Notes under the pieces: generated by a model | Seen by the model: only the letters and a program-made list of their open reading frames with translations | Database searches by the model: none | Told to the model about the DNA's origin: nothing | Position numbers and translations under genes: made by a program | Shown: positions 3,301 through 21,137 of the stretch, piece by piece | Numbering within the stretch: position 1 is the first letter of the stretch | Layout of the letters: each line of letters opens with the position of its first letter | DNA from: Amoebophrya sp. AT5.2 | Taxonomy: Eukaryota > Sar > Dinophyceae > Syndiniales > Amoebophryaceae | Assembly: GCA_005223375.1 (NCBI GenBank) | Contig: RXOD01004231.1 | Location: 1-25,581, forward strand | Direction of reading: 5' to 3' | DNA length: 25,581 nt

Positions 3301-6289
3301 AAGATGTTGTTCGTGGAAAAGCCCGAGCTTTCTTACAAAGCGATCAAGTACCGTTAACCGGTGGGCGCCGGACCAATAAGTTAATTCAATTGCCGCGCTT
3401 TCGCTTAAAAATCTTCTATAAATAAGATGACCGTGGCAAGCAGCACCGCTAGCGAACTGCGCGAAGACGCCCGGGATAGTAGAGAGAAAGCAGGCTCATG
3501 GGCTCTTGCGCTTGCGGCCTGACATAGGCTGACATCGCCCTCCTCGCGCACCAGTCTACGTGGCTTTCTTCGCCCCCACCCACAAGGGTGCAACATTCTG
3601 TAGTCCCGTAGTCCCCAGCAACGTTAACGGTAATGGATCCATTTCTAACCTTCGACCTTGGTGCAGTACGCGGTGAACACGTTCCAGGAGGACTTCTGCG
3701 ACCAGATCGCGTTGCAGAAGTCCTCCTGGAACGTGTTCACAACGTACTGGACCAAGGTCGAAAGTTAGAAATTGATCCTTTACCGTTAACAGCTTGTCCA
3801 GCATTCCCAGACCTCTCGCCCAGGCGAAAGGGTTGGGGGTGGGGGGGGGTTGTCGGCCGATGCCGATCCCCGGCCGACTGATCCGACGAACGCTGGACGA
3901 ACGAACGCCCGGCGCTGCGCTCGTTGTCGCCGAGCCGCTCGGGTGTCCGCGCGAGTCTTTCGCACATGGGGACTGCGATGGACCCACGCTTTCGGCCACG
4001 AGCGCAGAGCCAATCCCACGCCCTGCATCCGTGGCGACAAGCTGGCGACCGTCGAGGACGGGATCCGCTGTGAATGCCTTCGCATACACTCACTGCGACC
4101 AGTCGTTAACGGTAAAGGATCTCAATCTTTCTAACTTTCGACCTTGGTGCAGTACGCTGTGAACACGTTCCAGGAGGACTTCTGCGACCAGATTGCGCAG
4201 CTCCTGCACAACTTTCCGCCCGACCATCTCACCAACGAAGGCGCGAAGTTTTGGAGCGGCCCAAAAAGGCAACCCAAGGCGATCAAGTTCGATCAAACGG
4301 ATGACCTGCACGTCTCCTACGTGCAGGCGTGCGTGAACATGCTGCTGAACAACCTGGGGGAGCCGGTGGAGACGGACAAGGAAAAAATAAAAGCCCTCGC
4401 GCAAGCGTGCAAAGTCAAAAAAGTCGCAGCGAAGAAGGGCGTAAAAATAAAAGAAAACGACGCTGACACAGTGGAAGAAGGAGGAGCAGACGACGCAGCA
4501 GCAGGTAGTCGACCGATAGTCGTGATCATGCTATTCGAGGTTTATTGATGAAAATATTTATTTTCATGGTTAACAGATCCTGGGTCCATCGCTGGATCGC
4601 TCCATCAGTAGGCATCGGAATGCAGCTCCTCGAAGTCTTAAAAAAATAAACTCCAACTCGATCAGCCGAGTTGTTGTGCGAGGAGCTTTTGCAGGCGGCG
4701 GGTTCGAGCAAGTTTCGAACGTTGTACCCGGTGGACTTTGAGAAGGACGACGACAGTAATTTTCATATCGCCTTCATGGCCGCGTGCGCGAACCTGCGGG
4801 CCAGGAATTACAACATCCAGGAGGCCGATTTCATGAAGGTGAAGATGATCGCCGGGAAGATTATCAAGAGACCAGCGATGGTATTAGATAAGTCTGCAAG
4901 TGGCTAGTGGCAGTGGGCAAGTTGCCAGTAAATTGTAACGGGTGGTCCCCACTTGATGGGGTTGGGTGGCGGACGATCGCCCTAGCGATGGCGAGAGTCG
5001 GCTAGAAGGCGCTCTGAAGAGTGTCTGAGCTCTGAGGCGCGAAGGTTTCGGGGACGGTTCCAGAGATGCCGTATGGTGGGCAGTGGGAGAAGGTGGGTCC
5101 CTCGCTGACGAGGAGCCAGCGTGAGGGGTGTGGTGGCGAAGAGGAACAAAAACAAAAAGGGCGCCCAGTAGTCCGGCGATCTACAGCGATTGCCTACTAG
5201 CTGTAGGAGCTGCAGGCTGCTGATTTCGCAGAGGTCTGCCGACCCCGTACATGGTCGCTTTTCTTCCCCTTTCATTCGCAGCCCTCTTGTCAGGAGCATC
5301 GATAGCCAAAGAACCTTCAAAATAAACTAATACCACTATAGCTAGACCTAGACCTCCACTTACCATCGCTGGCCCTCCTTGTACAATGCTCATTCCCGCC
5401 ATCGCCACCACCACCGCCATGATCACGGGGCTGGTGCTCTGCGAACTGTACAAGATCGCGCTCGGCAAGAACAAGATCGAGCCCTTCAAGAACGCGCTCA
5501 TAAATCTGGCGCTGCCCCTGTTCGTGCTCTCAGAGCCGAGCGAGCCTTTGAGGGTGAAGTCGAGGGAAAACGACCCGGTGCTGCACGGACCGGTGAAGGC
5601 AGTGCCGGAGGGGTTTTCCAGCTGGGACAAAGTCATCGTGGACAAAGGAGACATCACGCTGGGAACGCTGGTACTATACGAAAGTGGGATCCGTCCTTGT
5701 AGCCCACCTTCTTCAGATCCAAAGCACAGCGCAGGCTTTCGATTTTCAAATTTTTTTAAGGCGGGTTTTTATCATTGGTTGGCGCCAACGAGAGCCACGA
5801 TAGCCAGCGGGATCGGCCGGGGATTGGTGTGGTGGCGGTCGGGTACCACCTGGTGGGTGCTCGACCACCAGTTCACCTTCCCCGAGCCGCCGTGAGTCGC
5901 ATTCACGTCTCCGCGGCGCCCGTTTCCCAGACCTTCCGCTCTCTAGTTTTTGGATGGCGATGTTGAGTGATGAGGATGCTGATTGTATTTAGCGTATAAA
6001 ACTTGCAGTTTAGCGTATAAAACTCGAAAAAAAGGTTGAGGAGATCCAGGAGCGGTACAACACGGAGATCATGATTCTTTCTGCCGGCAACGCTTGCCTG
6101 TACAACGCGTACCTTCCGAGCCACCGGAAACGGCAGCAGCAGAAGGTCACCGAGCTGTACGAGCAGATCTCGAAGACGAAACTGCCCGCGTACAGAACCT
6201 CGCTCCCGATCGAGTGCACCAGTGCCGACGTGGACGACGGAGTCGACGTCCAAATCCCAACCGTGAAGCTGATATTCAAAAACGCTTGA
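306..6289 (+). CDS. UBA1: Ubiquitin-activating enzyme E1 (UBA1), multi-exon, 5' partial
   Basis: E1 adenylates the ubiquitin C-terminus with ATP, captures it as a cysteine thioester and passes it to E2 enzymes. Exons I infer: up to about 379, 470-908, 1274-1485, 1710-2218, 2273-2981, 3124-3351, 4151-4504, 4666-4864, 5394-5670 and 6035-6289 (TGA). In order they give the inactive adenylation domain (GVGVEIAKN, about 505-535), the first catalytic half domain ([12 protein letters not shown], exon 3), the active adenylation domain ([10 protein letters not shown] near 2490; NLNRQFLF near 2617), the catalytic Cys in PLCTMK (codon 2970-2972), the second half domain ([27 protein letters not shown]) and the C-terminal ubiquitin-fold domain. 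The total is about 1,080 residues, close to the family's usual length. The first ATG of the window (378) lies inside conserved sequence, so the start codon is upstream or in an unseen exon. The linker 2187-2411 can be read as a 54-nt GT-AG intron (2219-2272) plus a serine-rich insert, or as one longer non-canonical intron. Confidence 0.93.
379..474 (+). other. UBA1 intron 1, non-canonical, 5-bp direct repeat
   Basis: TGGTC occurs at 379-383 and again at 470-474. Removing one copy plus the intervening sequence (91 nt) joins YDAYM to [10 protein letters not shown] in frame. The obvious GT-AG pair (381-467) would shift the frame by one. No inverted repeat is visible inside. The boundary is therefore ambiguous within the repeat, as expected for an intron that arose with a target duplication. 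Confidence 0.6.
905..1277 (+). mobile_element. UBA1 intron 2: introner-like element with TIRs and CGAA duplication
   Basis: CGAA is present at 905-908 and 1274-1277. Just inside, the left end from 909 (TACGCAGAGGAAATTTG, then ATGTCCCTGTC) is matched by the reverse complement of the right end (TATGCAAAGGAAATTTG, then TCCCTGTG). That is an inverted repeat of about 27-28 bp with a 2-bp gap and few mismatches. Excising 369 nt joins FVVRDA to NGEEPKT in frame, which matches the short conserved E1 segment D-x-x-GEEP. Without excision the frame hits TAA at 952. No GT-AG choice gives this junction. The architecture is that of a short non-autonomous DNA transposon acting as an intron. Confidence 0.78.
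3347..4155 (+). other. UBA1 intron 6, non-canonical, AGTAC direct repeat, complex interior
   Basis: AGTAC flanks the intron (3347-3351 and 4151-4155). Removing 804 nt joins SYKAIK to YAVNTF in frame with E1 conservation, while GT-AG at 3348/4152 breaks the frame. GTTAAC words stand at 3353, 3623, 3785 and 4104. The left end TACCGTTAAC (3349) is inverted as GTTAACGGTA at 4104. About 40 nt with a pyrimidine-rich stretch follow before the acceptor. The interior holds the hairpin at 3623-3790 and a G+C-rich stretch (3791-4103) in which I recognise nothing. Confidence 0.65.
3623..3790. repeat. Hairpin made of two opposed copies of the intron 6 acceptor plus exon 7 start
   Basis: Arms 3623-3699 and 3714-3790 are inverted repeats of 77 bp each with about six mismatches, separated by 14 bp. 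Each arm copies the sequence from 4104 onward: the last roughly 48 nt of the intron (GTTAACGGTAAAGGATC and onward to GGTGCAG) and the first roughly 30 nt of exon 7. The left copy continues to about 3711. This puts three copies of the same junction in the region, two in + orientation and one in minus. Confidence 0.9.
4865..5393 (+). other. UBA1 intron 8, non-canonical with inverted repeats
   Basis: The conserved join GKII to PAIATTT requires removing 529 nt between 4864 and 5394. Only 2 bp (AT) are shared at the two ends and no GT-AG pair fits. CCAGCGATGGTA at 4872-4883 is perfectly inverted at 5361-5372, and flanking bases (CAAGAG-A and CAAGGAGGG) extend the match. The 5' repeat lies almost at the donor end, whereas the 3' repeat stops about 13 nt before the acceptor. 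Confidence 0.62.
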
Positions 6290-6420
6290 TGCCACTTTCT
6301 GGTGAGGAAGCCCTAGCTGTATCGTTCCTAGTATTTGTGAGAGGCTACATCAACATCTACTGCGCCGATGTTGCGCCGCGATGATCAGTTGCCGCCATGC
6401 AGTTCGGGGTCGGGGTTTTT

Positions 6421-6487
6421 CTATGAAGGAACGATCAATCCGGAAGTTAACTTTAGATAGACCCTATTCTTCTTAACTTTCACGAAG
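6421..6487 (+). repeat. Left terminal inverted repeat of the 14.4-kb element
   Basis: This 67-bp arm matches the reverse complement of 20733-20799. Bases 1-21 and the last 27 (ACCCTATTCTTCTTAACTTT and onward) are identical. Two compensating 1-bp length differences lie between them. Similarity ends at CACGAAG. Confidence 0.92.
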
Positions 6488-6741
6488 GACCGCGATTTTG
6501 AGGTACCGCGTTTTTGATTTGGAGCTTGCGTTTCACATTTGCTTTTGAATAGGATTGCCTTCTGATTCGTATCCCTGATGACATCATCCGTGATCATTTT
6601 GGCCCAACCCAGCCATATACGCCAGGCCCCGTCGCAACCGAAAATTGGCCCGGACCGATCGCTGAACACTGTTCTCGCGGGAGCTGCGACGCCGCAGCGG
6701 CAGGGGGATTCTCGGGTTTTCACTTTTGCTCTCGCGTCCAA

Positions 6742-7041
6742 ATGGCCGCAATCGCAAAGATCATTTTCCAGGTGCGTTCGGTCTGCTCCTGCTGCGACTA
6801 CTATGACGTCGCGGGCACTTCGATGCCTTCGCTGTTTGGTTTCACGCCGTCACAAAAACAGGCATGGCGGCATCCAATCATTCGGCACGCCCACGAGCAT
6901 GAAGGCGGCCGCGTGATGAAGTGCTACCAGGCTGCTTCCAGGTCCTCGCTCTCACAATCATCAACCAAGTCGAACCGAAAGGATACGGAAGCGCAAGTGG
7001 TACTTGTATTGTCACTGCTGATTTCTGTTACTTTGTGTTGA
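6742..7041 (+). CDS. Small Cys/His-rich protein at the left end of the element
   Basis: The ATG at 6742 opens a 99-aa frame ending at TGA 7039-7041. Residues about 11-60 contain VCSCCDYYD, followed by RHPIIRHAHEHEGG and a further Cys in VMKCYQ. This spacing of paired cysteines followed by a histidine cluster could bind zinc, although it is not a clean match to a BED or C2H2 finger. A GT after IIFQ (6772) and another after EAQV near 6999 could be donors, so the frame may be only the first exon of a plus-strand gene. It begins about 250 bp inside the left TIR and points away from it, opposite to the large genes. I do not recognise a family. Confidence 0.4.
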   Translation: MAAIAKIIFQVRSVCSCCDYYDVAGTSMPSLFGFTPSQKQAWRHPIIRHAHEHEGGRVMKCYQAASRSSLSQSSTKSNRKDTEAQVVLVLSLLISVTLC

Positions 7042-7225
7042 CCTTGAAGTTGATCTTGATACAAGCTACTTCTCGTTCTTATCAAAATCAATGATCTCAG
7101 TATCACTGGAACTACTATCGTTTGCTATCAGTGACCGTGCCATTGCTGCATCCGTGTCGCGATAGCCAGCGTACTCGTAGTTCTTCTATTCCTAACCTGT
7201 GCATTCTACTGGTGTGGCGGTGTAG

Positions 7226-7782
7226 ATCAGCGCTGAATCAGAAAGCGATATCCAAAGCCGGTGAGGCAGCAGCCTCGTTCCGGCAACACTTGCATCACCT
7301 TCAGCAACAGCATCGCCTATAGAGAAATTTGATAGCGACCTGACTAGTGTCCTTGCTGTCAACTCCGCTGCCGTTCCCGATGAGCGAGCAGCTCCATCTA
7401 GCCCGGCGCCGATTGAGTAGTTTTTTTGGAAAGCCAGCAACGCACGCGCGGCACGCTGCTAGCGATCCGAAGAAATGAAAATCTGGCCGAGGCCAGATCG
7501 TAGAGGTTGGCTCTCGATAGAATTGAATCTGTGCACAAAATCGCAATCGAAGGTAGGAAGTCTTTTACTGGTTGTCGTTTATCAGGCTAGCAGAATACTT
7601 ATCCATTGTTCTGTAAATCTACAACAACAACAACAGGGTCCGCATCTGCGACCATGCGCGAGAGACTGGCCTCCGGCGCAGCTTCCCCGAGCCTGAGGGA
7701 CAATGCCCAGCCTGAAAAGTTGGTAGAGCAAAGAGACGGGGAGGAAAAGTCCGCAATGGGACAACAGACCGAATCTGCTTGA
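7226..7782 (+). other. Plus-strand coding-like patches, possible later exons
   Basis: The frame from 7226 (after an AG) runs ISAESESDIQSR, meets TGA at 7262-7264, and then continues in the same frame as SSLVPATLASPSATASPIE and FDSDLTSVLAVNSAAVPDE to TAG 7418-7420. A second patch, preceded by TAGCAG near 7588, gives TTTTTGSASATMRERLASG and QPEKLVEQRDGEEKSAMGQQ to TGA 7780-7782. Their composition looks like protein rather than chance. Splice sites are unclear and I cannot connect the patches with certainty to the frame at 6742. Confidence 0.3.
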
Positions 7783-8044
7783 AGATATAGTTTATGTAAA
7801 GCCTATTCATCGTTGTAAAAAGAGTTTAAAGTTAAACTTACTTAAACCTAATGGCATTGGTATTCGTAGTCGTACGCACACGCAGCACCGAGCTGCTGAT
7901 CTGATTCCGATACTGCGAGACTGAGAACGAGAAGTATGGCCTATTGGGCTACTTGGCTGCCAGAGCAAGGCTCGGGAGGTGTGGACGACGCCGCACGGCA
8001 GGTGGAGCACAGCTCGTTTATTTGCGGCACGAGATGCTGATGCC

Positions 8045-8117
8045 CCGCGTCGGAAGTGCTGCATAGATTCAGCAAGGCGCCTGCGCGTGCTGATTCCACC
8101 CACCACTTCCGACGCGG
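8045..8117. repeat. Inverted repeat (14-bp perfect arms)
   Basis: CCGCGTCGGAAGTG at 8045-8058 is perfectly inverted at 8104-8117. The 45-bp loop contains a second smaller stem (TCAGCA and TGCTGA). Plus- and minus-strand reading frames both cross it. Confidence 0.8.
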
Positions 8118-9113
8118 TGTTCGTAGCCTCAACAGCTGGCCGCTCCAATTCCCCTGCGCTCTGCGCCAATGGCTATGGCAATGGCAGAAGCCAATCCTAA
8201 TCCCTATCTCAAACCCAATGCCTAGGCCAAAGCGAATCCCAACCCAATCGCAAGCGGCAATCCAAACGAAATCGAATGCTACCACCAAGACCAACACGAC
8301 CACCATCACCAATGCCTATTTGCCAATCGCAATCCCTATCCCATTCCCAATCGCTACGATATTTAAACAGCAGCGAATCAGTATCAAAGTAAGACGCGCG
8401 ATCGTAGTTCCACGAGGTTATACTTATAGCTAGGGCGACAGGTCGTCTACTGCGGCGGGGAGGCCCAGCACAGATGATCAGACCCTGTGCATGAGCAAGA
8501 GCATGCCTCCCCAGTCTTTATGTAGGTGCGATATTCTGGGTGCTACTACGAAGCAGCGGCAGGCAGTGGCACCGGTGAAAATAGTGAATGCGTCCTGCCG
8601 AAGCTGGCGCGCAACTACATCTGCCTAGCCGCTACACCACCATGACCACACCGCCACGAAAGCGCTAAGTATATCTACTCGCCACTTACGGCATACGGTT
8701 GCGGATCAGGAGATCTTGCAAAAGCAAGTCGAAGAGCGACAAATGGAGACGCGAAACCGCGCTCTATTTTGTCCTCGTAAAAAATAGCAGTCGCTTCCGC
8801 TCCACCACCAATTCCACACTGCTATCAGGTTCAGCTCCAGGCCCACGCCCAGGACCCGACGCGCCGCGACAGCCATCCGCACACATCGGCGGCCATCCGG
8901 CACCAGCGCCACGACCTCCGGGCACGACCTGATTTTTTTTATGGTTCGGATGGCTCAAGCTTTAGTCATGAAATTTCATTCTGAAGTGGGGGAGGAGATG
9001 GAATCGATGCTGAAGCTGATGGCGGTGCTGAACGCCCCGCAGTATGGACATCGGCCGTCAGGAGCTACGACGACGAGCACGAATCCAAATCGCAAGCGGT
9101 TCGCGACAAGTGC
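8118..9113. other. Left-end element DNA without an assignable gene
   Basis: Positions 8170-8360 are degenerate low-complexity sequence based on words such as CCAATCC and CGCAATCCC, like that seen in introns of this window. Between 8440 and 8770 there are short coding-like plus-strand stretches, for example CYYEAAAGSGTGENSECVLP near 8545-8610 and EILQKQVEERQMETRNRALF near 8710-8770. Several frames look plausible and I cannot choose one. From 8780 to 9113 I see nothing further that I can support. Confidence 0.3.
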
Positions 9114-9393
9114 CTAAAAGTCCTCCAAGTCTTTGAAGACGCCATCCTTCATGATCTCCACGTCGTCTCCAGCGAACAGCTCGCCGAGTTCCTCGTCCTC
9201 CTTCATGGTCCGCGCCATGTCCTTCTGCTTGCACCTTGGCGCGCGCCTTCACCACGGCGGGGTCTGACTTCAGCCGGACCGGGGCCAAAAACGAAAACTC
9301 ACCGCTTCCGTACGGCTGTGGTGGTGGAGGTGAAGGTGATGCTGATGCGCTATGGCTTTGTCGAATCGGAAACGGGACCCATTCGCTAACGGT
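9114..9393 (-). pseudogene. Possible minus-strand coding remnant with a frame break
   Basis: Reading leftward from 9393, an open frame gives a proline-rich stretch (SPSPPPPQPYGSGEFSFLAP) and then VRLKSDPAVVKARAK. A second frame then gives KDMARTMKEDEELGELF, AGDDVEIMKDGVFKDLEDF and TAG at 9114-9116. The two good stretches are offset by one base. Removing the 10 bases GTGCAAGCAG between them restores one frame. It may be the decayed or mis-read end of another element gene, lying about 0.5 kb beyond the stop of the 9892-13491 gene. No family is recognised. Confidence 0.35.
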
Positions 9394-9691
9394 TTACGGT
9401 TCTGGGTATGAAGTAAAGGGTCGGCATACGGCGCCGAGCACCCCAAGACCATGCAGCTGCGCCTGCTCCTCCAGCGCCAGCCTAAGCGTAAGCCGTGAAT
9501 GCAGTGAGTTCCACACACCTTCGGCTTCGGCGCTGATGTTTAGCCCGCCATCACGTCTATTCTCTCTGCCCAGGCTTAGGCTTCAGGCATGCCAACGACT
9601 TTGCGCGCAGTACCAGACAAAGACCCGCTAGCCAGAGCCACACCGGCGGCCACGCTCAGCGTCAGCTGGCAGCTGGAGCTGGCCTTTTATC

Positions 9692-9788
9692 TCGGAAACT
9701 TTCCGAAAGATAGACGCTCCGGGCTCTACCTAGAGAGATCTCTCTCTAGATAGACACTCGGAGCGTCTATCGTTCGGAAAGTTTCCGA
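9692..9788. repeat. 97-bp palindromic fold-back sequence A
   Basis: Arms 9692-9721 and 9759-9788 are inverted 30-mers (TCGGAAACTTTCCGAAAGAT then AGACGCTCCG) with one mismatch. The middle contains a further palindrome around AGAGAGATCTCTCT. The word GGAAACTTTCC is itself palindromic. It lies about 100 bp downstream of the stop of the 9892-13491 gene. It could be a MITE-like insertion, a terminator or processing structure, or an internal transposase binding site. Confidence 0.88.
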
Positions 9789-9891
9789 AAGGACCCACTT
9801 TCCCACTCCTAGGTCAAGCATGGCGAGCGCAGCTTTGGGTTGGTCTTGGAGCTGGACGAAAGAAGAGCATACTTAGAAAAACAAAGAAACA

Positions 9892-12800
9892 CTAAAGCAC
9901 CAGGGTCAGGGTGCGATAGCAGATCTCGTCGGTGTCGTAGACGGAACCGCCGGTCTTTCCGGCGTTGGACGCGAACGACCAGTAGTAGCGGAGGTAGGAG
10001 ATGGGGTTGGGGTACGCGGCGGCGTGGACGTGGACGATCTCGCCGAAAAAGTCGTTTTCGTTTTCGACCGACTCCGACTTGAACCTGCGCAGCCTCGGGC
10101 CCTGCTTCAATTTCAGGAACTGAAACTTCTTGCCGAACTCTTCCTCCTCGATGCTGAGCTTGTGCTTGTCTTCGTCGCGGCGGATCAAATGCCGGAGCTT
10201 CAGAATTCCTTCTTCCTGTGCACCACGTCCGTCCGTGTCGTTCGGGTTGAGGTTCTTGGCGACCTTGCACCAAATCGGACTCTTCGCCGCCGGATCCCGC
10301 AGGTACTTCTTGGTCGCTTCGACTTGCTCCTCAAGAGTCGGCTCCGGCAGCGCCGGGCTGGAGCCGGACGTCGGATTCACGACCTCCCCCTTCACCGACG
10401 GCACGCGTTCCAGGATCGTCTTGTGAGAGTGCATGTACTTCACAGCATCGACGTAGAACGGGAGCATGCGGCACTGTTCCAGCTGCGGAGGGATGTGCTG
10501 GAGCGCCTCCCTGTGGTCCTCGATCGTCTCGGCCTCCCACTTCAGCCAGTCTCCGAGAGTCTCGTCGAAAGAATCGAACGCGTCCTGGCACGTCCGGAAC
10601 ATGCCGATGATCAAATCCCGCTGCGCCTCCTTGATGTTCTGTCATGGAGATGGTATTTTTTATTTGCGTCTAAGTTTCAAGGGCATGCGCATGGAGGATG
10701 GTTTTTCTTTTGTATTCGAGAGTACATGCCGCAACCGCAAGGGCAAGCCGCAAGCGAAGCTGCTCAACACGCGCGCACATGCGCGTGCGCCCGAGCACAC
10801 ACACGCACGACCAGATTTTGAAGCGGGTGTGGTAGTGGTTGTGGACGCCCGAGAAAGATAATTGAGTTTCAGTATGGTGTGGATGTGCATGTGCCAGCGC
10901 AAGCGCGTGTGGAAGTGGATGGGGATGGGGATGCGCAGGAAAATAGTACTCAGATACCGAAAACCAAAACAAGAAACAGAAATGGAAATCGGAAACGAAG
11001 TCGCAAAATAAAAACTTCAACATAGGTGATACCGGCAGCGCCTGCGCGTCTGCTGCGACCTTGGCGTCGAGCTCGCACTGCTTCGCGATCTTCTGCTTCA
11101 CGTCCTCCCGGTGTTCGTCGGACATTGCGGTTGCCGGATCCAGAGCCCCCATCGACACCTTGCGCATCGCGGTCCCCGTGGCAGACTTTGCACGCTTCGC
11201 ACCCTCCTCCGGGGTCAATCCGCTGCGGCCGCGTACGTTCGTAGTGGACGTCGCACAGGTTGACTTCGATTCCCCTTCCTCCTTCAGTTTCGACTGCTGT
11301 AGCCGGTTCGCGTACGCCTTACCCGCCTCTTTTTCGATGGCGAGCCAGAGCTCCTCCCGCTTGTCGGCGTCAAGTTTCGCAGCGTCGGAGTCCAGCTTGT
11401 TCTTCATCTTGGTGATCTTCGCCTTGCCGGACTTGTTGAGCTCCGCGCGCGCCTCCGCCAAGAGCTTGTCGTCATCCTTCACCTGCGACTCACTCCAAGC
11501 GAAGTCCAGCTCATCGTCGGTCGCGGCCACCTCCAGCTTGGCAGGAGCCGACAGGCCCGCAGCCGCACTACTGCTGCTGCCCGAGGAGTCCTTGGTGGCG
11601 ACCCTGTCGGACGTCGAGGCTTTCGTCATCTTCCGGTGCCGCCGCTCGTTGAGAGTTCCGTCCGGATTCAGCGGAAGAGCGTATCCGTTTTCCACGAACT
11701 TCAAGATGCGGCCCTTCCAGTCACTCGGCGCCTGCACCCAGCACTCCTGCATCACGAACGGGCGGTCGCGGTTATCGAGCACGATCATGTTGTACGCCAG
11801 CGCCTGCGGAGGCAGCTGGTAGTCGTACGCCACGACGTTCAACTGCAGGCCGGGGATGCGGTCCTCGATCGACAGGTACAGGGCGGTGGCCATGTTCCCG
11901 ACGTGCTTGATGTAGAAGTCGTTGCGCGCTTTTTGGTAGCCGTTCATGGCGCGCCTCCACAACCAGTTGGGGGGCCGAGTCAGCCCGTGGCCCTCCGGTT
12001 CCGTCTTGTACAGGTCCTCATCCTGATCTTCCTGCACTGCGTCGTCGTCGTCCGCCGTTTCCTTCTTCTTGGACTTCTCCTGCTTCTTGGCGCCGTGGTT
12101 GTCGAGGAAACGCTTGCGCTCGCGGTACATTTCGCAGATGGACTCCTTCGTCACCCAGTGCTTGAGAGTTTTTTTCAGGTCCTGCGCGCTCATCTTGTGC
12201 AACGGCATGGAGTGGTCGACCTCGCCCTCGGTGTTGTATTCGACCAGCAACGTCAGCTGCTTCCGGTCCTCCTTTTGCATCTGAATCTTGTCGCCCGATG
12301 ATCCGCCTGCGTAACGGAAGTCGACCTGCACGGCACTGAACAAGTCCAGCGCATTCGTGCCCTTCTGCAAGCTGGTGACCGGCTCGATGTTCGTCTGATG
12401 TTTTGTCTGTGGGTAGTGACCGCATGGAAATGCAACGAATGCCATAGAAGTAGAATATCGATGACAGCGTAGGAGTAGAGGTAGGCGTAGCTACCGATAG
12501 AAGCGAAACTTATTCGCACCTTGTAGAAACTCATCAGCCCCATCTGATCACCGGGCGGCGCCCGCTCGTGAATGGTCACCCCCGAAACCGTGCGCCGCTT
12601 GTGCACGTTCTTCCCCTCCATCGTCTTGGCGATATCGATCTGGCCCTTCTTCTCGACGCTCTCAATGTACTTCTTGGCCCATTCCACCATGTCCATGGGC
12701 GGATACCCCTTGTCCTTCATCCTTTTTTCGTAGGACTTGTACTCGTTGTGGCAGCGTGCCAAGATAGGCAACGCCTCCAAGAACTGCGCCTTGAGGTTCC

Positions 12801-13491
12801 CGATTCCTTGGCTGCGGCACTGCGCGAACACTTCCAACAGCTTGGGATAATTATTGATGTCCGCGTCCAGGGCGATGATCTGTAGTGCGTGAAAGTTCGA
12901 GTGAATCAAAAAAGTAAGTACCTACGCGGCATAGTTTTTATCTGCCTGAGTCACCAAGACAAAGTAGCACAAGCAAACAAGCTATACTTTGAGCCCGAGA
13001 TCTGCCGCGCGCTGGAAGCCCACTGTCTTGATTGCCTGCATGGTGTGGCTGCCGCTGATCATTGCGTACTGGTTCGCACCGGGGCCCATGTCAACGGCGA
13101 CGAGATCTGCGAAACAGGTATTGGAGATGGATTATGATGGAAACGCGATGTCTTAGCAAGTGCAATCTGCTGCGTTTTAAGTGCGAAAGCGTTGACATTT
13201 GCAGCAGAACCTACACAACAAGTAGCAATTTATACGCATGCCGTTGCTGACGTATTGGCTCTTGTCGAAGGCTTCGGTGAGGACCTGCAGCCAAAATGGG
13301 CTGTAGTCGCGGTTCATTTCGTGGCGACACGAGGATGTGGTGTAGTTGTTGTCGAGGGGTCGCTCGATCTGACCGTTTCCATCTGGTTTTGCCCATCGCC
13401 GTGCAAACTGAATGACACCAGTAGGACCCGTCTTGCCCGCGTCGAAGAGTAGGGTCGTACTATCGACATCCTGGGGCCCGGGGAATGACAT
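9892..13491 (-). CDS. Five-exon element gene of unknown family (about 945 aa)
   Basis: The ATG at 13491-13489 opens MSFPGPQDVDSTTLLFDAGK. Inferred exons, read leftward, are 13491-about 13243, about 13112-12988, 12879-12520, 12394 (or 12406)-11033 and 10638-9892 (TAG). Introns 2-4 are in-frame GT-AG (donors AAA/GTATAG, AAG/GTGCGA, CCG/GTATCA). Intron 1 fits a GC-AG pair least badly. The acceptor of intron 3 has two in-frame AGs 12 nt apart. The protein has a central stretch rich in Asp, Lys and Ser (EARAELNKSGKAKITKMKNK; DDELDFAWSE) and a basic-acidic C-terminal region. No signal peptide or membrane segment is seen. I recognise no domain. Its place between the transposase-like gene and the left end, on the same strand, suggests an accessory function of the element. 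Readthrough past 11033 (VSPMLKFLF and beyond) is intron. Confidence 0.7.
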
Positions 13492-13628
13492 CTTTCCTGC
13501 TGAAACTCGGAGAAGATTACTAAGAAATGAAGGCGCTGAGCGCGCTCAGAGCCGTGAGTCCAAGCACTCTGGCGATGCCTCAGACCTGTGAATTGGCTGG
13601 GATTTGGAAGCTCCGAAAATGGGTGGTC

Positions 13629-13769
13629 TCGGAAAGTTTCCCAAAGATAAGCTATGGACGCGTCTACCTAGACGCTTGATCTGCTTAGATAAGCTGATGA
13701 TCTGTCTAGATAAGCTGTGGACGTGTCTAGATAGACACTTGGAACATCTATCTTTCGGAAAGTTTCCGA
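13629..13769. repeat. 141-bp palindromic fold-back sequence B, related to A
   Basis: TCGGAAAGTTTCCCAAAGAT (13629) pairs with the reverse complement of the end at 13769 (TCGGAAACTTTCCGAAAGAT). Between the arms, words such as CTAGATAAGCTG and GGACGCGTCTA recur. End sequences and the AGATAGAC word are shared with fold-back A at 9692-9788. It lies about 140 bp upstream of the ATG of the 9892-13491 gene, so the two copies bracket that gene. Confidence 0.82.
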
Positions 13770-14349
13770 AGGAGAGGACTTGGAGGCCTCCAAAAAACAG
13801 GGCGAATTGAATGAAGTGAGCAGGTTGACGAGCTGGAAAGTCTAGGTAGTTGGAAGAAAAAAAGTGGTTTTTCACGTGCTGAACTGCTACTATCATACGC
13901 TTTTCTCAACCCAAATCAAAACAGATCCAAGGCCCGAAACCGCATTCCAACGGCTTCCGCACCTTGTACTCGCTGGCCGTATCACGTGTTTTTTTCTCAA
14001 AACTGATAGCCGGCATGGCAAGCGCGAAGAAGCTTTGCGCCATGTTTCAGCCCGGCGCGGCATGCACAAAGAAGCAACTTCCCGCCTTTTCTCCCCCTTT
14101 CATCGCTCGAAGTTGTTGTACAAAACTAGTGCTCGTAGAGTAGATCAACGCCGTGTAAAGCTCAAGGTAAGTAAAAATCTAAAGCCTACGCAGTCACTGC
14201 GCATCAACTACTACAAGCGCTTTTACTTTTCCATCCGCATACTAGCAATTCAAAAATAGAGCTTCAAAAAATGTCGTCACTGGTAGTTGTAGTTCCATTT
14301 CCAACGAAAAGTAGATGAAAATCTAAATGTAAACTTCAACTGGTATCAT
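13770..14349. other. Intergenic spacer inside the element
   Basis: This separates two minus-strand genes. A plus-strand frame with a GTG start covers 13864-14259, but its basic composition, lack of ATG and position give no support for a gene. No clear promoter or terminator was recognised. Confidence 0.4.
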
Positions 14350-16509
14350 CTACTCCTCGTCACTGTCCTCCTCACTGTCCACGTCATCGTCGGCGTTGTC
14401 AAACAGCATAGCCTGCTTGTACTGGTTTTCGATCTCCAGCGCCTTGGCCTTTTGCGCCTCAGTGGCCTGCTTGAAGCTCGGCGGCAGCTTCTTCGCCCCG
14501 TCCTTGATGTTGGCCTTCACGTAGTCGTACAACGCCCGGACTAGCTCCGCCCGGGTCTTCTTGGCGATGCAGCGGGTGCTCGCCTTGACCGGGATCTCGG
14601 TCTCCTCGCCGTCGACGAGGACGAAAAAGCTCTCCTCTTTCGTAGAGCGGCAGACGTTGCCCCACCACTGGTTCTGTTCCGGCTGAAAGATCGCGTAGGC
14701 CTTAAACAGGTGCAGCTTGTTGATCTTGATCTCCGGCACAGATTCCTTCTGGTCGAACTTCCCCCACTTTTCCTCGCGCACCCGACGCCGGCCTCCCCCC
14801 CGCCCAGTTGTCGAGTTGCGGCGGGCCGGACTTCCCGCAGGCTGCCCGCGCTTCTTCAACAACGACTGCACATCCGCCGTGTACTCCGTGCCGTACTCGA
14901 GCAGGAACTGCAGCCGCTTCTTCAGCCCCTCGTCGATGCAAGTGTTGATCATCGACTTCATCGACTTGGTCTTCTTGTGCTTCGCGGCTACGAACTCATT
15001 CCAGTGGTCCTCCTCCTCGTACCGCATGACGACCGTGATATCGCAGCCGCGGGCGTCGGAGCCCGTGTTGTCGAGATAGAACAGGTTCTTCGTGGTCTTC
15101 TTCACCCAGTACTTCGTCACGTAATTCGGCGGCGCCGTGATCACGACCGAAGACTTCGCCACCTCCTTCGGCGTGATCTTGTCCTTCTCGGCGCGGGCCT
15201 TGGCCGTGCGGAGCTCCGGGCACGCGGCGATCGTGTTCTTCTCGTCCCGGGTGGGTTTTTTCAGGAGCTGCGGCCGAAAATCGCAATCACCCATGTTGCC
15301 CGCTTCCGTCGCGGTGCCCAGGAGCAGCCGCCCGGAGTCGGCTTCGTAGAAACAATCCTTCACCACCATCGCCGACGCGTTCGTGTGGCTGCCGCGCACT
15401 TCGTCCGGGTGGTATTGCGCCAAAGCGCCTGCCTTCGGGTTGGCAGCCGACGCTTTCGGGAGAAAACCACCTGCGGCGCCGCCAACGCCGGGGAGAAACT
15501 CGTAAGCGTGGTCCTGGTGCTCGTCCGCGACGACGATCTGGTGCGGCTGGGCCGAGAGCCGGTTTTGCGCCCCGTTTTTCATCGCGGCGCTGATCTCGTT
15601 CGCGCGCGAGCGCGACGCATTGTTCGGCACACTCGGTGTGCGGTCGCGGTGGCCGCTTGCGGGGCCAGGGTTTAGCGCAGCACGCCCACGCGGTTGCGGC
15701 GGCGGCACCCGCGACGAGGAGGAGGGTCCGCCGACGAGCACCATGGGCATCTGGGCCACCTCAGCCGCCATGGCCCGCGATTCACGCAGGGCTTGCTCCA
15801 GCATCGGGTCGTCATCGTCCTCGTCGAATACGTCGTCGTCGTTCCCCCGGTGAAACTGCCCAGAGATGGCCGGCTTCGCGCCCGGAGCTTTCGCGTCCCG
15901 GGTCCCCATCATTCCCAGCTTTCCGCTGGCGGCCTTGTTCGTCACGAAGGTGGGCTGCATGATGTGGAGGTCCTGCAGAATTTGCGCCGGCCCCGGCTGC
16001 GCCAATAACTCCTGCTCCTTCCGCTTTTTCTCTTGCTCCTTCCGACTCGGTTTCGGCGCGGACCAGGCGATGTGCTGCAGCAGCTCAGACAACATGATCG
16101 GTTTGTCGTGGACGACCGTCCAGCAGCCGGCTCCGGACTCCTCCTCACACGCGACCAGCATCATGTCGTACGCGGTGGAGTCGACGATCAAGCACTGCTC
16201 TGCCGGGACGAACGCGTTCGCCACCGCGTCATCGGTGAATGTGAAGCAGATGAGATCGCCCGGAACTGCCTCCAGCGCCTTGGTTTGGACCTGGACTTCA
16301 TCCATGACACGGCGCGCCTTCGCGCCAGTCTTCACCGCCGGGGCGTTGAAGAACTTTGCGCTCTTCTGGTACTTGGAGATGTGGCAGACGAGGTCGCTGA
16401 AGAGCAACATTTTTGTGGGATCCTTAGTCAGCTTTCTGCGGAGTCCTGATCGTGCTGACCAAGTTGAGGCGACAACATCGCGCGCGTCGTCGTATTGTTC
16501 CCATGACAT
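14350..16509 (-). CDS. 719-aa element protein with ubiquitin-interacting-motif match and acidic tail
   Basis: This is a single open frame. I chose the ATG at 16509-16507 (MSWEQYDDARDVV); the frame stays open 20 codons further upstream but without ATG. It ends at TAG 14352-14350. Residues about 230-248 read DEDDDDPMLEQALRESRAMA, which fits the UIM consensus: acidic run, Leu-x-x-Ala-Leu-x-x-Ser. N-terminal about 180 residues look folded. A Lys/Glu-rich helix (KPSRKEQEKKRKEQELL) and a proline/serine-rich linker follow. The C-terminal 350 residues look folded again (KYWVKKTTKNLFYLDN; WWGNVCRSTKEESFFVLVDG) and end in DDDVDSEEDSDEE. No enzyme motif is recognised. It lies between the transposase-like gene and the five-exon gene, on the same strand. 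The UIM call is a short-motif match only. Confidence 0.8.
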   Translation of the reverse strand: MSWEQYDDARDVVASTWSARSGLRRKLTKDPTKMLLFSDLVCHISKYQKSAKFFNAPAVKTGAKARRVMDEVQVQTKALEAVPGDLICFTFTDDAVANAFVPAEQCLIVDSTAYDMMLVACEEESGAGCWTVVHDKPIMLSELLQHIAWSAPKPSRKEQEKKRKEQELLAQPGPAQILQDLHIMQPTFVTNKAASGKLGMMGTRDAKAPGAKPAISGQFHRGNDDDVFDEDDDDPMLEQALRESRAMAAEVAQMPMVLVGGPSSSSRVPPPQPRGRAALNPGPASGHRDRTPSVPNNASRSRANEISAAMKNGAQNRLSAQPHQIVVADEHQDHAYEFLPGVGGAAGGFLPKASAANPKAGALAQYHPDEVRGSHTNASAMVVKDCFYEADSGRLLLGTATEAGNMGDCDFRPQLLKKPTRDEKNTIAACPELRTAKARAEKDKITPKEVAKSSVVITAPPNYVTKYWVKKTTKNLFYLDNTGSDARGCDITVVMRYEEEDHWNEFVAAKHKKTKSMKSMINTCIDEGLKKRLQFLLEYGTEYTADVQSLLKKRGQPAGSPARRNSTTGRGGGRRRVREEKWGKFDQKESVPEIKINKLHLFKAYAIFQPEQNQWWGNVCRSTKEESFFVLVDGEETEIPVKASTRCIAKKTRAELVRALYDYVKANIKDGAKKLPPSFKQATEAQKAKALEIENQYKQAMLFDNADDDVDSEEDSDEE

Positions 16510-16748
16510 TTGGCCCCGCCGCGCAACGACACTGAGATGATGGAGCAACGACGAATGACGAAGGAACACAAGCCGCCGACGCAGCCATAGCTACTTATTT
16601 AGATTTTTTTAGGCTTAGGGCTTGCTGATAGAAGGCCGCGATCTTTTTACTATGTTTTGTAGCCATCGGCCGCCGTCGCGTTCGCGCATTCAATTTTTAC
16701 CGCGCCGACGGTGCAGCCGTTGCTCTCTCAGAGAGACGGCGCAGCGAG
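16510..16748. other. Spacer between two element genes
   Basis: It contains TA-rich words (TATTTAGATTTTTTTAGG near 16594) and, into the next frame at about 16763-16800, degenerate repeats of GGAATAGG type. No gene or hairpin of note is seen. A short terminal exon of the upstream transposase-like gene could lie here but cannot be shown. Confidence 0.4.
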
Positions 16749-19627
16749 CTAGAAAAATAAACTATGCGCATCGGAATAGGGATCGGAATAGGCGTAGGAA
16801 GTACTTCTACAACGAGAACGAGCACGAGGTAGTTGAAACCGTGCCGCAGAAAGAGCCACACTGATGTGGCTGCTGACCTCGCGGTGTATCGCAGTGCTTG
16901 TAGAGTTTATGGACTCCGCCTCCTGCGATGTAGGATACAACGCATGGAGAAGCGGCTCCAAATCGTCTAGCAGCGCGGGCGAGTAAGCCGGAAGATCGGC
17001 CGGCTTCGGTCCGTCCCGCAGCGGCGTCCGCAGCGCCTCGAGCTCGTGCTTGAAGTCGTCGTACAGATCCAGCGTGATGCGGTCGAGCTCGCGCCGCTCC
17101 CCTCGTCGGCAAAGCGCCTTGGCAGTCGTGCTCACTTTACCCGCGGTCAGCAGACCGAACAGCGCGTGCGGGAAATCGTTGAGAGGTTCCTGGCGTTCCC
17201 GTATGTCCTTCTGGGCCTTCAGCAACGCGATCGCGGCGAATCCAGCGGCGGCCCGGTCATACATCAGACGAGTCTGCGTTAAAACGAACCGCCGCGCCAG
17301 CTGCGACTTCTTCCACGGCACCACCGCGTTGCGAGCGAGAGAAGCCGTGCTGCAGCCGGAGGAGCAGAGGCCGGCGAATTTCATGACCCCGGCGGAGGCG
17401 TCGCGCATCAGCTCCAGCATGGAGCCGCTAGCCTCCAGGGCGCTCCACCATGCAGGCGTCGTGACGGCGGAATAGGCTCTGTTAACGAGCGCAAGGCTTT
17501 TCTTGATCAGCGACCCTGCTTTTTTTGTCATCGAGAAGTGGGGGATGACCACGGCGATCTTGTCCTTCTGCGCCAAGATGTCCACTGTCGTCGATTCTGT
17601 GGAGATCCAGCGGGTCGCGACGTAGTTCGTTACCCTCTTGCACTGAATCTCGGAACCCGCCGCGTCCGCGTCCACTTGGGGCAGCTGGTAATCCTCCGAC
17701 ATGGGATCGCTCCGCCGCACGCCTACGCCGCTCGCCTTCGGTTTCGGAACCACCCAGCCGCCGACGCGGATCGTCTCGAGCGGCTGTTCGACGTCGATGC
17801 CCGGTACAACATCCCCACCCTCCTCCACAAACCCGCTGGCCGCGTTTCTGATGGCTGGGCCCAGCTCGCCGTCCTGCAGGTCTTTGGCGACGCCTCGACT
17901 CTCCCCCGCCTGCAGCCCCCCGGTCATCGTCTTCGGGGCGAGCCAGTAGTTTATCGTCTTGGAGACGGCGGTGAGGGTCTTGGACAAGTTGAGCCCCAGC
18001 ATTGCGCTGAGGCTTGCCATGACGGTCTTGGAGACGATCGAGTACAAGTGCAGCTGGCACGTGATAAAAGTGATCGCCCAGAGCGGCTCGTTGGGGACGT
18101 TTGCGATCCGGAGTGCCTCGCCGAGAAGAGCCAGAAGTTTGAAGGCCTTTATCATGTCGCTGCCGTTGTCACTGCAGCCGAGGAGCGCGGGTCGAATCTT
18201 CGGCAACGTCCCGTCGTGGCGCATGGTAGCGGCGAAGGTTCCAGGAAGCGGTATGTTTGCACGCCAGCACATGAAGTAGAGATCATCGAGGAGGTTCAAC
18301 GCACCTCCCAGCGTTGCCTCGGACTCGAGAGGAAAAGACTCCATCACGACGCCGCGCGCGGAAGAGCCGGGCTTCGCACTTCTGAAGGCCGAAGCGACGC
18401 AGTTCATGTGTTTGATGGGTCCGAACGGTGTAGCGTCCGGCGTCATGCGGAAGACGACACGGGGCTCGCGCGGCAGTTTCTGGCCCTTGTCTCGTTCGTC
18501 GCCCGGGAAGGTCTGAATCGCGATGGGCTCCTCTTCATCACCACCTACCGCCACTTGTTCCTGTGCACACTGCAGCGGACCCAGCCCCAAGCTGCCGTCA
18601 TCGACCTCCATCGCGGACCCGTTTTCGGCGGCGGCACTGGCAGCGATTGCGTTTCGCATGAAGTGGTGGATCTTCGGCTTCGGCTTGGTTCCCAAAGCTC
18701 TCCCCGCAGCCTGCTCCACGACGCTCGTCGACATGATCTCGAACCAAGCCGCCGGGCAGAGGTTCAGGATCCTCATCCGGTTGCACTGGGACTGGCAAAG
18801 CTTGTAGGTCAGTTCGGCGCGTTTGCCGAACATCCTGTACTTTGTCTTCATGTTCGCCTGCAGCCGCTTGTAATCTTTCTTCGCTTGCAGCCCCTCCGCC
18901 GCAGTCACCCCCGCCATGCCAACCACCTTGGATGCTGAATAAAGTCCGGCCTTCAAATCCGGTTGGTACGGCACGTCGAAGTTGAACGCCGTGTCGTCTT
19001 CGACGAAAACCGGATCTTCATTCTCCACTTCGCTATCGGCGTCGGCCTGAAAGAGTTCGTCCTCGTCTTCTGCGTGGAGCTGGAGAGCGGGGCCCGCTGG
19101 TGGAGGACCGTTGGCGGGGGTGGTCGTCTTCATCTTGCCGTACTGCGCCACCGCGATCAGACTGCGAGCGCGGTCCTTATCACATTTGATGTTGGTCTCC
19201 AGCCCGGACGCAAGTAGCGCCATCCGAGCTCTTTGCGCGCTCGTCCCATGGCCTCCGCCGACGAGATACCGCACCCATCGTCGAAATTTCGGTTCTCCAA
19301 ACTTGGCCGGGGCCTGCATTCCGGCGAGGTCATCGGCGACCTGCTTGCTCAGCACCGCCTCTTCTCCCCCCATCTGTAGATCCCATACTTCGTCGCCAAA
19401 CTCGAGCCGCTTCTTCCACAAATCGACTCCGAACTCCACCACAGATTTCCCGACCGTGAGGGTCCACTGCTTCGAAAGCGCCGGCGCTGAGGGGACGAGG
19501 GAACGAATATTGCCACCTCCTGGCGCGCGCGGAAAGTTGTTGCTGTTTCCCCACTCCAAGACGCGGCGGACGTCAGCAACCGTTTGGCAGCCCGCGAGCC
19601 GCGCGTACTGCGAGTCCGGAGGCTGCG
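16749..19627 (-). CDS. Transposase-like protein with hAT-type RNase H-fold signatures (main exon)
   Basis: Open frame of roughly 950 codons, entered after an AG near 19627 and lacking ATG, so the start lies in an upstream exon. Counting from the TTG codon at 19559-19557, four landmarks occur in the order seen in hAT transposases: an Asp in RMTPDATPF (about 375), CSDNGSDMIKA (about 462-472; compare the hAT D-N-A-S-N-M block), CQLHLYSIV (about 501; the C-x-x-H block) and NYVATRWISTESTTVDIL (about 645; the R-W block). A candidate acidic end is YPTSQEAESINSTS (about 875-888). The N-terminal 300 residues carry an acidic segment (EDEDELF) and no clear zinc finger. Predicted role: cutting and joining at the CTATGAAGG termini. 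After EVSSHIS (about 16860) the frame becomes low-complexity Arg/Ser/Tyr, so either splicing occurs there or the end is degenerate. The family link rests on motif reading only. Confidence 0.7.
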
Positions 19628-19799
19628 TCGTGCTGTGCTGCTAGCTTCAACCTATGCTTGTGCTTCTACTTCTAATTCCACTTCCACATCTTTACTTATT
19701 TATGTTTTTTTTTCAATTTTGCAGGTACTTGGCTACTTATGCCTTTCACTTCTTGTTCTTGATGGTGTACTTTGCTTCGCTATCGTGCGGAGGGCTGAA

Positions 19800-19923
19800 A
19801 CCATGGAGGACTGGCTGCTGGTGCTGAAGTCGAAGTGTCGGCCGCAGGGTCTTCCAAGCTCCAGAAGGGTTCTGGTTCTGGCTCGGGTTCCGTGGAGACT
19901 GATGGACCCGGCGGCGGCGGCAT
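19800..19923 (-). CDS. Candidate upstream exon, proline-rich (element transposase gene)
   Basis: From ATG 19923-19921 the minus strand reads MPPPPGPSVSTEPEPEPEPF, WSLEDPAADTSTSAPAAS and PPWFQPSAR before TAG. This resembles a disordered protein N-terminus. It lies about 170 bp upstream of the main transposase exon on the same strand. The intervening sequence is AT-rich and intron-like. Splice sites could not be fixed. Confidence 0.3.
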
Positions 19924-20095
19924 CTTTTCACGTACTTATCTATTTGACTGCTGCTCGTGCTCGTGCTGTAGGCCTCCTCAATCTAAATGCGTCAAAACTT
20001 CTAACTAAAAATACGAGGACAAAGAGAAAGAGAGACGCACGCTTTTGCTTTACGAGCCGCTACCTGTGCGCGTGCGCGTGCCTGCTACTACATAC

Positions 20096-20199
20096 CACTC
20101 TCAGGCCCGCGCTCGCATCCAGCTCCGCAAGGGCATCCACCTGCGCCTCCGCCTCGTTCTCCTTCGTTAAAAAAGTGCCGCACTCCTGGCCTCACTCAT
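20096..20199 (-). CDS. Candidate first exon of the transposase gene, frame broken at a T run
   Basis: ATG 20199-20197 begins MSEARSAALF and then hits TAA inside a six-T run. One base out of frame, the same strand continues LTKENEAEAQVDALAELDAS and AGLRV up to a good donor, GTG/GTATGT, at 20095. A seventh T would join both halves. This may be an assembly error in a homopolymer, a real inactivating indel, or chance. Confidence 0.3.
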
Positions 20200-20732
20200 T
20201 TCTGCGGTCGGTGTCGCTCTGCCACATCGGCGCTGGTTTACTATCTCTCCAAGCCGGCCGCGCCCAGGGAAAAAAAAAAATGAAGTACTTGCACTTCCAC
20301 GACTCGGACTCGGCACAACGGACGACAAACCAGCTCCAGCTCCCGCGCAAGATACTTATGTTTAGATTTTTTTACTTCTGTTCGCAATCGAGTGAGCAGG
20401 TGCGAGCGCGCCTTTTTTTTCTTTTTACTCCACTGCTACTACCGTGATGCTCATGCTTCATCATGCTCGTACAGTCTCAATCAGCACCGCACCCATTGCA
20501 TTCCTCAACGGGCACCCTTCCCGAACCCTCCGGACGCGTGGCGCCTGGCTTGATTCTCCGGCTTTCTGCGATTTGCTTTCAAGAAGAAGAACCGAACGAA
20601 ACCAGCAGTCGCGACGCTGCAACCGAACACGAGACCAGCATATTTTTTTTCGTCAGCGGTGGGAAGAAGTGCGGCAGACAAGAGACGGATCGCGACGAAA
20701 CGAAACAAAACCAACGACGAAAAATTTAGGAT
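20200..20732. other. Right-end element DNA without a gene
   Basis: It contains an A10 run ending at 20280, pyrimidine-rich stretches and several short frames with no supporting features. Presumably upstream or untranslated sequence of the transposase gene, between its first candidate exon and the right TIR. Confidence 0.4.
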
Positions 20733-20799
20733 CTTCGTGAAAGTTAAGAAGAATAGGGTCTATCTTTAAGTTAACTTCGGATTGATCGTTCCTTCATAG
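20733..20799 (-). repeat. Right terminal inverted repeat of the 14.4-kb element
   Basis: Reverse-complement partner of 6421-6487, ending in GATCGTTCCTTCATAG and followed directly by the GTTTTT duplication at 20800-20805. Confidence 0.92.
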
Positions 20800-20805
20800 G
20801 TTTTT

Positions 20806-21137
20806 CTGGCTGTGAGAGTCTGGAGTAATACTTGGTTCAGCACAAGAGGACGAGGAGCAGAAAAGCAGCTAAGTACTTCCAGACCTATTGAAGACCACAA
20901 CTACGCGTAGGCTCGGCCACTACTACTTCATCTGGCGAATGCGTCTACAGCTGATATACTGTAGCTGGTGTAGCTGACGAGTGAGACTGTGACTCTCTTT
21001 GTCCGGGTCGCTATGAGGTACATCAGCCCGCACCGGTGACGCCACATCCGATTTGAGATAATTTCAGAGGCCGTGGCTCCTGGACACATTTTTTCAATCT
21101 TCCCCGGCCCGGGGGGCGGCACGAGAACCGAAGACGA
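20806..21137. other. Host spacer right of the element
   Basis: No gene is supported. A minus-strand frame crosses it and overlaps the small plus-strand frame at 21138-21434, which has the better codon pattern. Confidence 0.35.

Follow-up and report, generated by a model that had tools for sequence, protein, structure and literature searches.

A giant two-gene cut-and-paste transposon of Amoebophrya sp. AT5.2, probably from an undescribed hAT-like lineage and with a candidate ParB-like accessory protein

Contig RXOD01004231.1 of Amoebophrya sp. AT5.2, which is 25,581 nt long and is referred to here as the window, carries a 14.4-kb insertion bounded by terminal inverted repeats (TIRs). In a first-pass annotation, its size, its TIR length, an apparent 6-bp target-site duplication (TSD) and hAT-type motifs could not be reconciled with any one family of cut-and-paste transposons, which raises the question of what kind of mobile element it is and what its large proteins might do. 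A study on the compact genomes of Amoebophrya reported two putative transposases for one strain but none for a second strain, and most repeats were left unclassified (PMC7789003). The insertion is identified here as a TIR cut-and-paste transposon of a new giant variant with two genes. It probably represents an undescribed lineage of giant, hAT-like elements equipped with a ParB-like accessory protein, in line with the earlier suggestion of a new or lineage-specific giant family.

Reading of both junctions places the element at positions 6422-20798 (14,377 bp). Its TIR arms are 66 bp long each, differ by one mismatch and two gap positions over 67 alignment columns and are separated by about 14.2 kb, so that the near-perfect inverted repeat described before is confirmed with slightly corrected arm length and spacing. 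The 5' boundary was set at TATGAAGG by the junctions of this element and of three other complete elements found in the genome (assembly G000, 50.7 Mb in 2,759 contigs; individual contigs are denoted by C and a number). The duplication that flanks the window element is GGTTTTTC. The motif GTTTTT, previously noted on both outer sides, is indeed present, but it is not the full duplication, which has 8 bp and was read as 6 bp because the first base assigned to the element is in fact part of the target site. Perfect 8-bp TSDs in all four complete elements (CCACCGGC in C1220, GATCGGCT in C874 and TAGTTAGC in C310) rule out a TSD of 6 bp. As 8 bp is the hAT-type length, and also that of Zisupton and one Dileera family of the KDZ group, the conflict between duplication and hAT-type motifs disappears, whereas the size of the element and the length of its TIRs remain unlike hAT.

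The second complete element (C1220, 1159-14108; 12,950 bp) contains the same exons in the same order, has its own TSD and encodes a transposase that is just 65% identical to that of the window element. The other two complete elements are distant relatives (C874, 4878-16659, 11,782 bp; C310, 10735-23330, 12,596 bp). Termini across the four elements read TATGAA, TAAGAA or TATGAG, with TATGAA at the start of the C874 and C310 elements. The TIRs measure about 66 bp in both the window element and C1220; those of C874 reach 232 bp (99% identical) and those of C310 247 bp (90%). The TIRs of C310 (10735-10979 and 23086-23330) appear by eye to contain internal repeats of a GGAAGTGGAGCCGAAGG-like unit and are unlike the window TIRs in this respect. 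A genome search with the window TIR, the check proposed in the first-pass annotation, matched four ends of two elements only (E 0.001); the TIR is thus found at more than this locus, and amplification in the form of miniature inverted-repeat transposable elements is not seen. A diverged full copy and two distant complete relatives, each with its own 8-bp TSD, bear out the view that a single giant TIR transposon was inserted here, against which it must be held that no empty insertion site was found in the genome. Unrelated repeats flanking host genes by chance, or an assembly join, could be suspected since the locus is known from one assembly only, with no reads seen. The complete C1220 element, which repeats the exon set and has a TSD of its own, and the two distant complete ones render this explanation extremely improbable; with transposases as diverged as those of the window and C1220, the latter is unlikely to be the same misjoin.

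The element encodes two spliced genes, not the three large genes counted initially (Table 1). Two open reading frames (ORFs) of 963 aa and 746 aa are the exons of one transposase gene with a product of 1,660 aa from the open-frame start: they are joined by a phase-matched GT-AG intron on the minus strand (16532-16839), and the joined frame has no internal stops. In C1220, an intron with GT and AG sites is located at the matching place, and in C874 a single ORF of 1,474 aa contains the catalytic part together with a C-terminus that shows homology to the last part of exon 2 (147 aa, E 8e-4). Consequently, of the two big proteins that had been left unassigned, one is the C-terminal half of the transposase and the other, the product of what is called gene 2 here, is a protein with ParB-like relatives. 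The large exons conserved with C1220 all lie on the minus strand, as had been described for everything large between the ends.

In an alignment of 15 transposases, made with MAFFT from this family alone, every member retains the residues D, D, C, H, R, W and E. The two aspartates are 78-89 aa apart, the tryptophan and the glutamate 213-256 aa, and a serine is found at E+4 in 14 of the 15 sequences. In the Hermes transposase the key residues, essential in hAT, are D180, D248, R318, W319 and E572 (PMC6027215), and a CxxH or DxxH motif is common to hAT, Kolobok, P, MuDR and IS256 (PMC3706591). Judged by order and spacing alone, the invariant residues are equivalent to those of Hermes. Elements of the new group therefore resemble hAT elements (Hermes, Ac, Tol2) in the 8-bp TSD, the presence of TIRs, the order D-D-CxxH-RW-E, comparable D1-D2 and W-E distances, and the Ser at E+4.

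In other respects they differ. Elements of the hAT superfamily measure 2.5-5 kb and have TIRs of 10-25 bp (PMC3942097) with the consensus [T/C]A[A/G]NG (PMC6027215), whereas those described here measure 11.8-14.4 kb (11,782-14,377 bp), have TIRs of about 66-247 bp and end in TATGA or TAAGA. They carry a second gene, and their transposases are 1,400-1,700 aa long, with a C-terminal extension that is conserved between the window element and C874. Several results weigh against a hAT-like core. No relevant Pfam domain was detected in the 15 transposase members, neither hATC (PF05699) nor any other hAT domain, and none in the proteins P0003 and P0004. A PDB search with the 15-member transposase profile returned no match up to an E of 10, Hermes included, and a search with another transposase profile returned two unrelated chains only; the hAT C-terminal consensus, used as positive control, retrieves Hermes from the PDB at 1.6e-12. 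When the profile was aligned to this consensus with hhalign, E fell on E, with a score of 14.25 that was beaten by 8 of 40 shuffles. An AlphaFold model of the catalytic core, computed from the window sequence alone, was unusable (pLDDT 35.7).

The element was not filed under hAT because it departs from that superfamily in four features, namely a recognisable domain, size, TIR length and TIR consensus; nevertheless, it looks as if it works like a hAT. A closely related explanation, which differs in rank only, is that of a very divergent true hAT member that became giant and gained a second gene. The 8-bp TSDs, the hAT key residues and CxxH in their proper order and the Ser at position +4 from the catalytic E, which the Hermes piece also shows, all agree with it; the missing Pfam and Hermes matches, a profile-profile score at shuffle level and the deviating size, TIRs and termini do not, and such membership is considered possible but on balance unlikely.

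Two other groups are brought up by TSD length or size. The KDZ group (Zisupton, Dileera, Kyakuja), compared by description only, includes an 8-bp TSD in Zisupton and in one Dileera family (PMC12730594), and fungal elements of the group carry a second gene. However, no TET/JBP domain was found by Pfam in the ORFs scanned, and the CxxH motif fits the hAT/P/MuDR/Kolobok group (PMC3706591), which makes a KDZ affiliation very unlikely. An endogenous virus or a Polinton-type self-synthesising element would agree with a size of 14.4 kb and with a TSD of 6 bp as originally counted. Polintons typically have such a TSD, a PolB polymerase, a retroviral-type integrase, a packaging ATPase and a capsid protein. 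The TSD is 8 bp here, no polymerase, integrase, ATPase, protease or capsid domain was detected by Pfam in the large ORFs scanned, and no related IMG/VR locus was found with two transposase profiles. On the domain content of the scanned ORFs, this explanation was rejected as highly improbable.

Gene 2 consists of six exons, separated by GT-AG introns at the same places in the window element and in C1220. Its association with the transposase extends through much of the family: gene 2 was found on 16 contigs, 13 of which also contain a transposase, and it is located downstream and on the same strand in all 13. This arrangement was read directly in eight out of eight cases (window, C1220, C877, C874, C310, C1931, C2292 and C2027), gene 2 of the window, C1220 and C877 having already been shown by sequence matches. 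The genome search adds gene 2 on C1444, C2125 and C82 and, with weak matches, on C2698 (E 0.003) and C2311 (E 0.011). Gene 2 matches without a transposase match occur on C2451, C2514 and C2124. A hand splice of the C2027 gene 2 is contained letter for letter (175 aa) in the public model P0004 (EukProt g18063.t1), in which the transposase of the C2027 element and its gene 2 run into one product of 1,522 aa. This fusion could be a prediction artefact or a fused or read-through transcript. It counts against a general linkage that, with the queries used, no gene 2 match was obtained on 9 of the 22 contigs with a transposase; one of these, C1722, is cut by the contig end.

The N-terminal part of the gene 2 protein shows, by eye, the pattern strand - SG.[HR][RT]..A.K - helices. 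Four of seven members have matches among the ParB partition families in PHROGs (C1931 3.6e-4, C874 0.0018, C2027 0.073, C2292 0.092). In the PDB, profiles of this gene 2 region placed SbnI (E 0.15 and 0.17) and a chromosome-partitioning ParB (0.25) on top, and matches of gene 2 members below the cut-off were obtained to ddrB-ParB in Pfam (0.24) and to PRTRC_parB in NCBIfam (0.2). SbnI is a ParB-fold protein (PMC12704722). The protein is termed ParB-like because these weak matches agree over four libraries. This assignment has to be weighed against the gene 2 proteins of the window, C1220 and C310, which when searched singly gave no ParB match in PHROGs, against the continuation of the same PDB list with an unrelated adhesin (0.37) and a synthase (1.6), and against a first, smaller gene 2 profile, for which an amidase (0.58) ranked above SbnI (0.74) in the PDB. 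Two further gene 2 members have no Pfam match. A bZIP_Maf match in exon 4 lies below the curated cut-off and was read as a charged helix.

With ParB, SbnI and sulfiredoxin the gene 2 relatives share a motif of the type [LIV]SG.[HR]R..A.K, preceded by a strand and followed by helices. Unlike these proteins, gene 2 encodes a eukaryotic, transposon-borne protein of some 1,000 aa whose later parts are unassigned, with no ParA partner in sight; in the ORFs scanned by Pfam, no ParA-like domain was found. According to a survey of the ParB-CTPase fold, such proteins are often linked to mobile elements, and in eukaryotes the fold is most commonly represented by sulfiredoxin (PMC12704722). In the open-access literature searched, the nearest published parallel is Sola1-1 of Ectocarpus, a 21.5-kb transposon with a ParB-like and methyltransferase protein for which an anti-silencing or DNA-modifying role was suggested (PMC12477816). 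Both are giant protist DNA transposons with a ParB-like accessory protein; in contrast to Sola1-1, the present elements have a transposase of another superfamily, carry gene 2 on the strand of the transposase (opposite in Sola1-1), have no methyltransferase found in gene 2 and possess many diverged relatives.

By analogy with this precedent (PMC12477816), gene 2 might be cargo directed against host silencing, or a DNA-modifying partner, with a role outside transposition itself; this would be compatible with the remaining conclusions. No methyltransferase domain was detected by Pfam in the gene 2 exons scanned (exon 6 of the window lay outside the scan), and the motif [DNS]PP[YFW] is absent from six gene 2 regions. 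The place and orientation of gene 2 are kept beside very diverged transposases, which would be unexpected for loose cargo, and such a role appears rather unlikely. More probably, the N-terminal part of the protein would adopt a ParB-like nucleotide- or DNA-binding fold, and the protein would most likely serve as an accessory DNA-binding factor.

Candidate sites for such a factor were sought among the short repeats of the element. The palindrome TCGGAAASTTTCCGA occurs at three places in the genome, all within the window element (intron 5 of gene 2 holds two of them, the intergenic region the third), and the 8-mer AGATAGAC, present in both TIRs, recurs three times over the two repeat clusters located there. 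In C1220, 21-bp repeats and a palindrome are found at the same intergenic place, and the 8-mer ATCTAAGC of the right TIR recurs three times in this cluster. Some sharing of this kind is expected by chance, as three of the other TIR 8-mers are likewise found three times elsewhere in the window element; nothing comparable was found in C874 and C310. Palindromes with arms of 8-10 bp are present between transposase and gene 2 in all four complete elements, but they surpass shuffled sequence only mildly. Equal arm lengths are reached in 13, 27, 13 and 2 of 200 shuffles, respectively. In four further members no palindrome exceeds shuffles, and on these a palindrome before gene 2 fails as a general rule. 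A site for the gene 2 protein between the genes is therefore held as an idea and not as a result. Introners of the type described by Farhat (2021) are unsupported as the source of the short inverted repeats, since the palindrome is absent elsewhere in the genome.

Taken as a hAT-like element with an accessory protein, the transposon would work as follows. The DDE transposase, with a hAT-like core (D, D, CxxH, RW, E) that presumably adopts an RNase H fold, and with long N- and C-terminal extensions, would bind the TIRs that begin with TATGAA and related termini. It would then excise the entire 14.4-kb element and insert it via 8-bp staggered cuts, a step suggested by the TSDs and the conserved residues. 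The gene 2 protein would load on internal sites, such as the palindromes and 21-bp repeats between the genes, and would help to pair the distant ends and/or control expression of the element; the family may still be mobile today. In a more far-reaching version, the elements would form a new eukaryotic DDE group at the level of a superfamily with a bacterial-type partition module: gene 2 protein would load at the TCGGAAASTTTCCGA palindromes and the repeat clusters that have an 8-mer in common with the TIRs, spread as a nucleotide-gated clamp and either compact the element for synapsis of its ends or keep the excised element together as a body. This version is regarded as improbable; if true, a partition-type clamp would let cut-and-paste elements outgrow their usual size limit.

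The lineage as proposed would add to the CxxH class of DDE transposases. It would also be another eukaryotic transposon group with a ParB-like protein, this time next to a different transposase, so that the role of ParB folds in eukaryotic mobile DNA becomes a testable question. A diverse group of giant two-gene transposons, invisible to Pfam-type annotation, is located in a spliced-leader-bearing genome: 21 nt of the dinoflagellate spliced leader are found at 18 places, compared with none for the reversed control, a result that by itself points to a dinoflagellate host, probably from a parasitic lineage with a compact genome.

Transposase homologues were detected at E 0.001 on at least 22 contigs (10 and 32 matches in two genome searches). 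On C1722 a weak TIR match of 18 bp marks an element end, and a 14-mer of the other terminus is found at 10 places in the genome compared with one for the reversed control. Element ends reading TATGARCGGACMAA were seen within the first ~20 bases of three contigs (C2292:1-14, C265:8-21 and C1416:20-33), which suggests that these repeats interrupt the assembly and that more copies exist than were counted. Outside the assembly, a metagenomic contig of 1,155 bp encodes gene 2 exon 1 (P0001) with 95% identity to C1220 over 85 aa and 64% to the window, and consequently comes from a close relative. Two proteins in EukProt share 98.3% and 99.6% identity with G000 loci over 1,094 and 1,175 aa, respectively, which indicates that a public proteome exists for the host or a very close organism. 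In a database of 5.8 billion proteins, these two were the only transposase relatives among the 7,994 best word-sharing candidates scored in each search; one of the searches gave no hits. So far, the family is known from a single genome with its public proteome and from one metagenomic contig.

Comparison of the window element with C1220 yielded dN and dS values of 0.579 and 1.559 for transposase exon 2 and of 0.392 and 2.338 for gene 2 exons 1-5, and a dN of 0.295 with saturated dS for transposase exon 1. As dS is near saturation throughout, dN/dS can be described as well below 1 and not more precisely. Both genes of C1220 are open apart from their introns. In the window copy, the frame of gene 2 exon 5 fails to reach the stop used by C1220, and by eye an ATG is missing at the position of the likely transposase start of C1220, so that the window copy may be damaged.

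Table 1. Coordinates of the features of the transposon in the window
Feature	Position	Strand	Basis
Left TSD GGTTTTTC (8 bp)	6414..6421		Junction reading; 8-bp TSDs in three other complete elements
Left TIR, begins TATGAAGGAACGATCAATC	6422..6487	+	95.5% to right TIR over 67 columns
Gene 2 exon 6 (last)	9114..9315	-	Placed against C1220, where a homologous stop closes it
Inverted-repeat cluster, gene 2 intron 5	9684..9789		Two TCGGAAASTTTCCGA palindromes and two AGATAGAC motifs shared with both TIRs
Gene 2 exon 5	9901..10638	-	C1220 10656-11393; dN 0.436, dS 1.345
Gene 2 exon 4	11033..12394	-	C1220 8940-10409
Gene 2 exon 3, part after ParB-like core	12520..12879	-	C1220 8444-8803
Gene 2 exon 2, motif YAMISGSHTMQAIK aligned with ParB-like motif of relatives	12988..13106	-	C1220 comparison
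Gene 2 exon 1 with start codon	13236..13491	-	C1220 comparison; P0001 64% identical
Cluster between transposase and gene 2	13629..13790		21-bp repeats 13677-13733; palindrome TTCGGAAASTTTCCGAA at 13754
Transposase exon 2 including stop codon (second large gene of the first-pass annotation)	14350..16531	-	Phase-matched splice; C874 homology
Transposase exon 1	16840..19640	-	Open frame from 19640; D402, D491, C528xxH531, R677-W678, E909
Right TIR	20733..20798	-	Inverted-repeat comparison
Right TSD GGTTTTTC (8 bp)	20799..20806		Junction reading

The insertion had been placed between two ubiquitin-system genes, which is confirmed for the left side only. The left neighbour is a ubiquitin-activating E1 gene (matches to ThiF, E1_4HB and UBA_E1_SCCH), while SPRY is the sole domain match on the right. 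The likely stop codon of the E1 gene is located at 6287-6289, 124 bp before the duplication, and the E1 coding region is therefore left untouched by the element. No Rfam match was obtained in the window at the gathering threshold. Within the E1 gene region, repeats of 66-80 bp in inverted and direct orientation (91-96%) are found at positions 3623-4197 and look as though the end of an exon had undergone duplication and inversion. Upstream of the SPRY match, a direct repeat of 73 bp (21782-21854 and 22149-22221; 95% identical), which by eye reads YYFEVEILDLGLRGEITVGLTLW, is possibly an exon duplication in the right-hand neighbour. Finally, a tandem array of AAAGTGC is located at positions 27-264 and decays toward one side.

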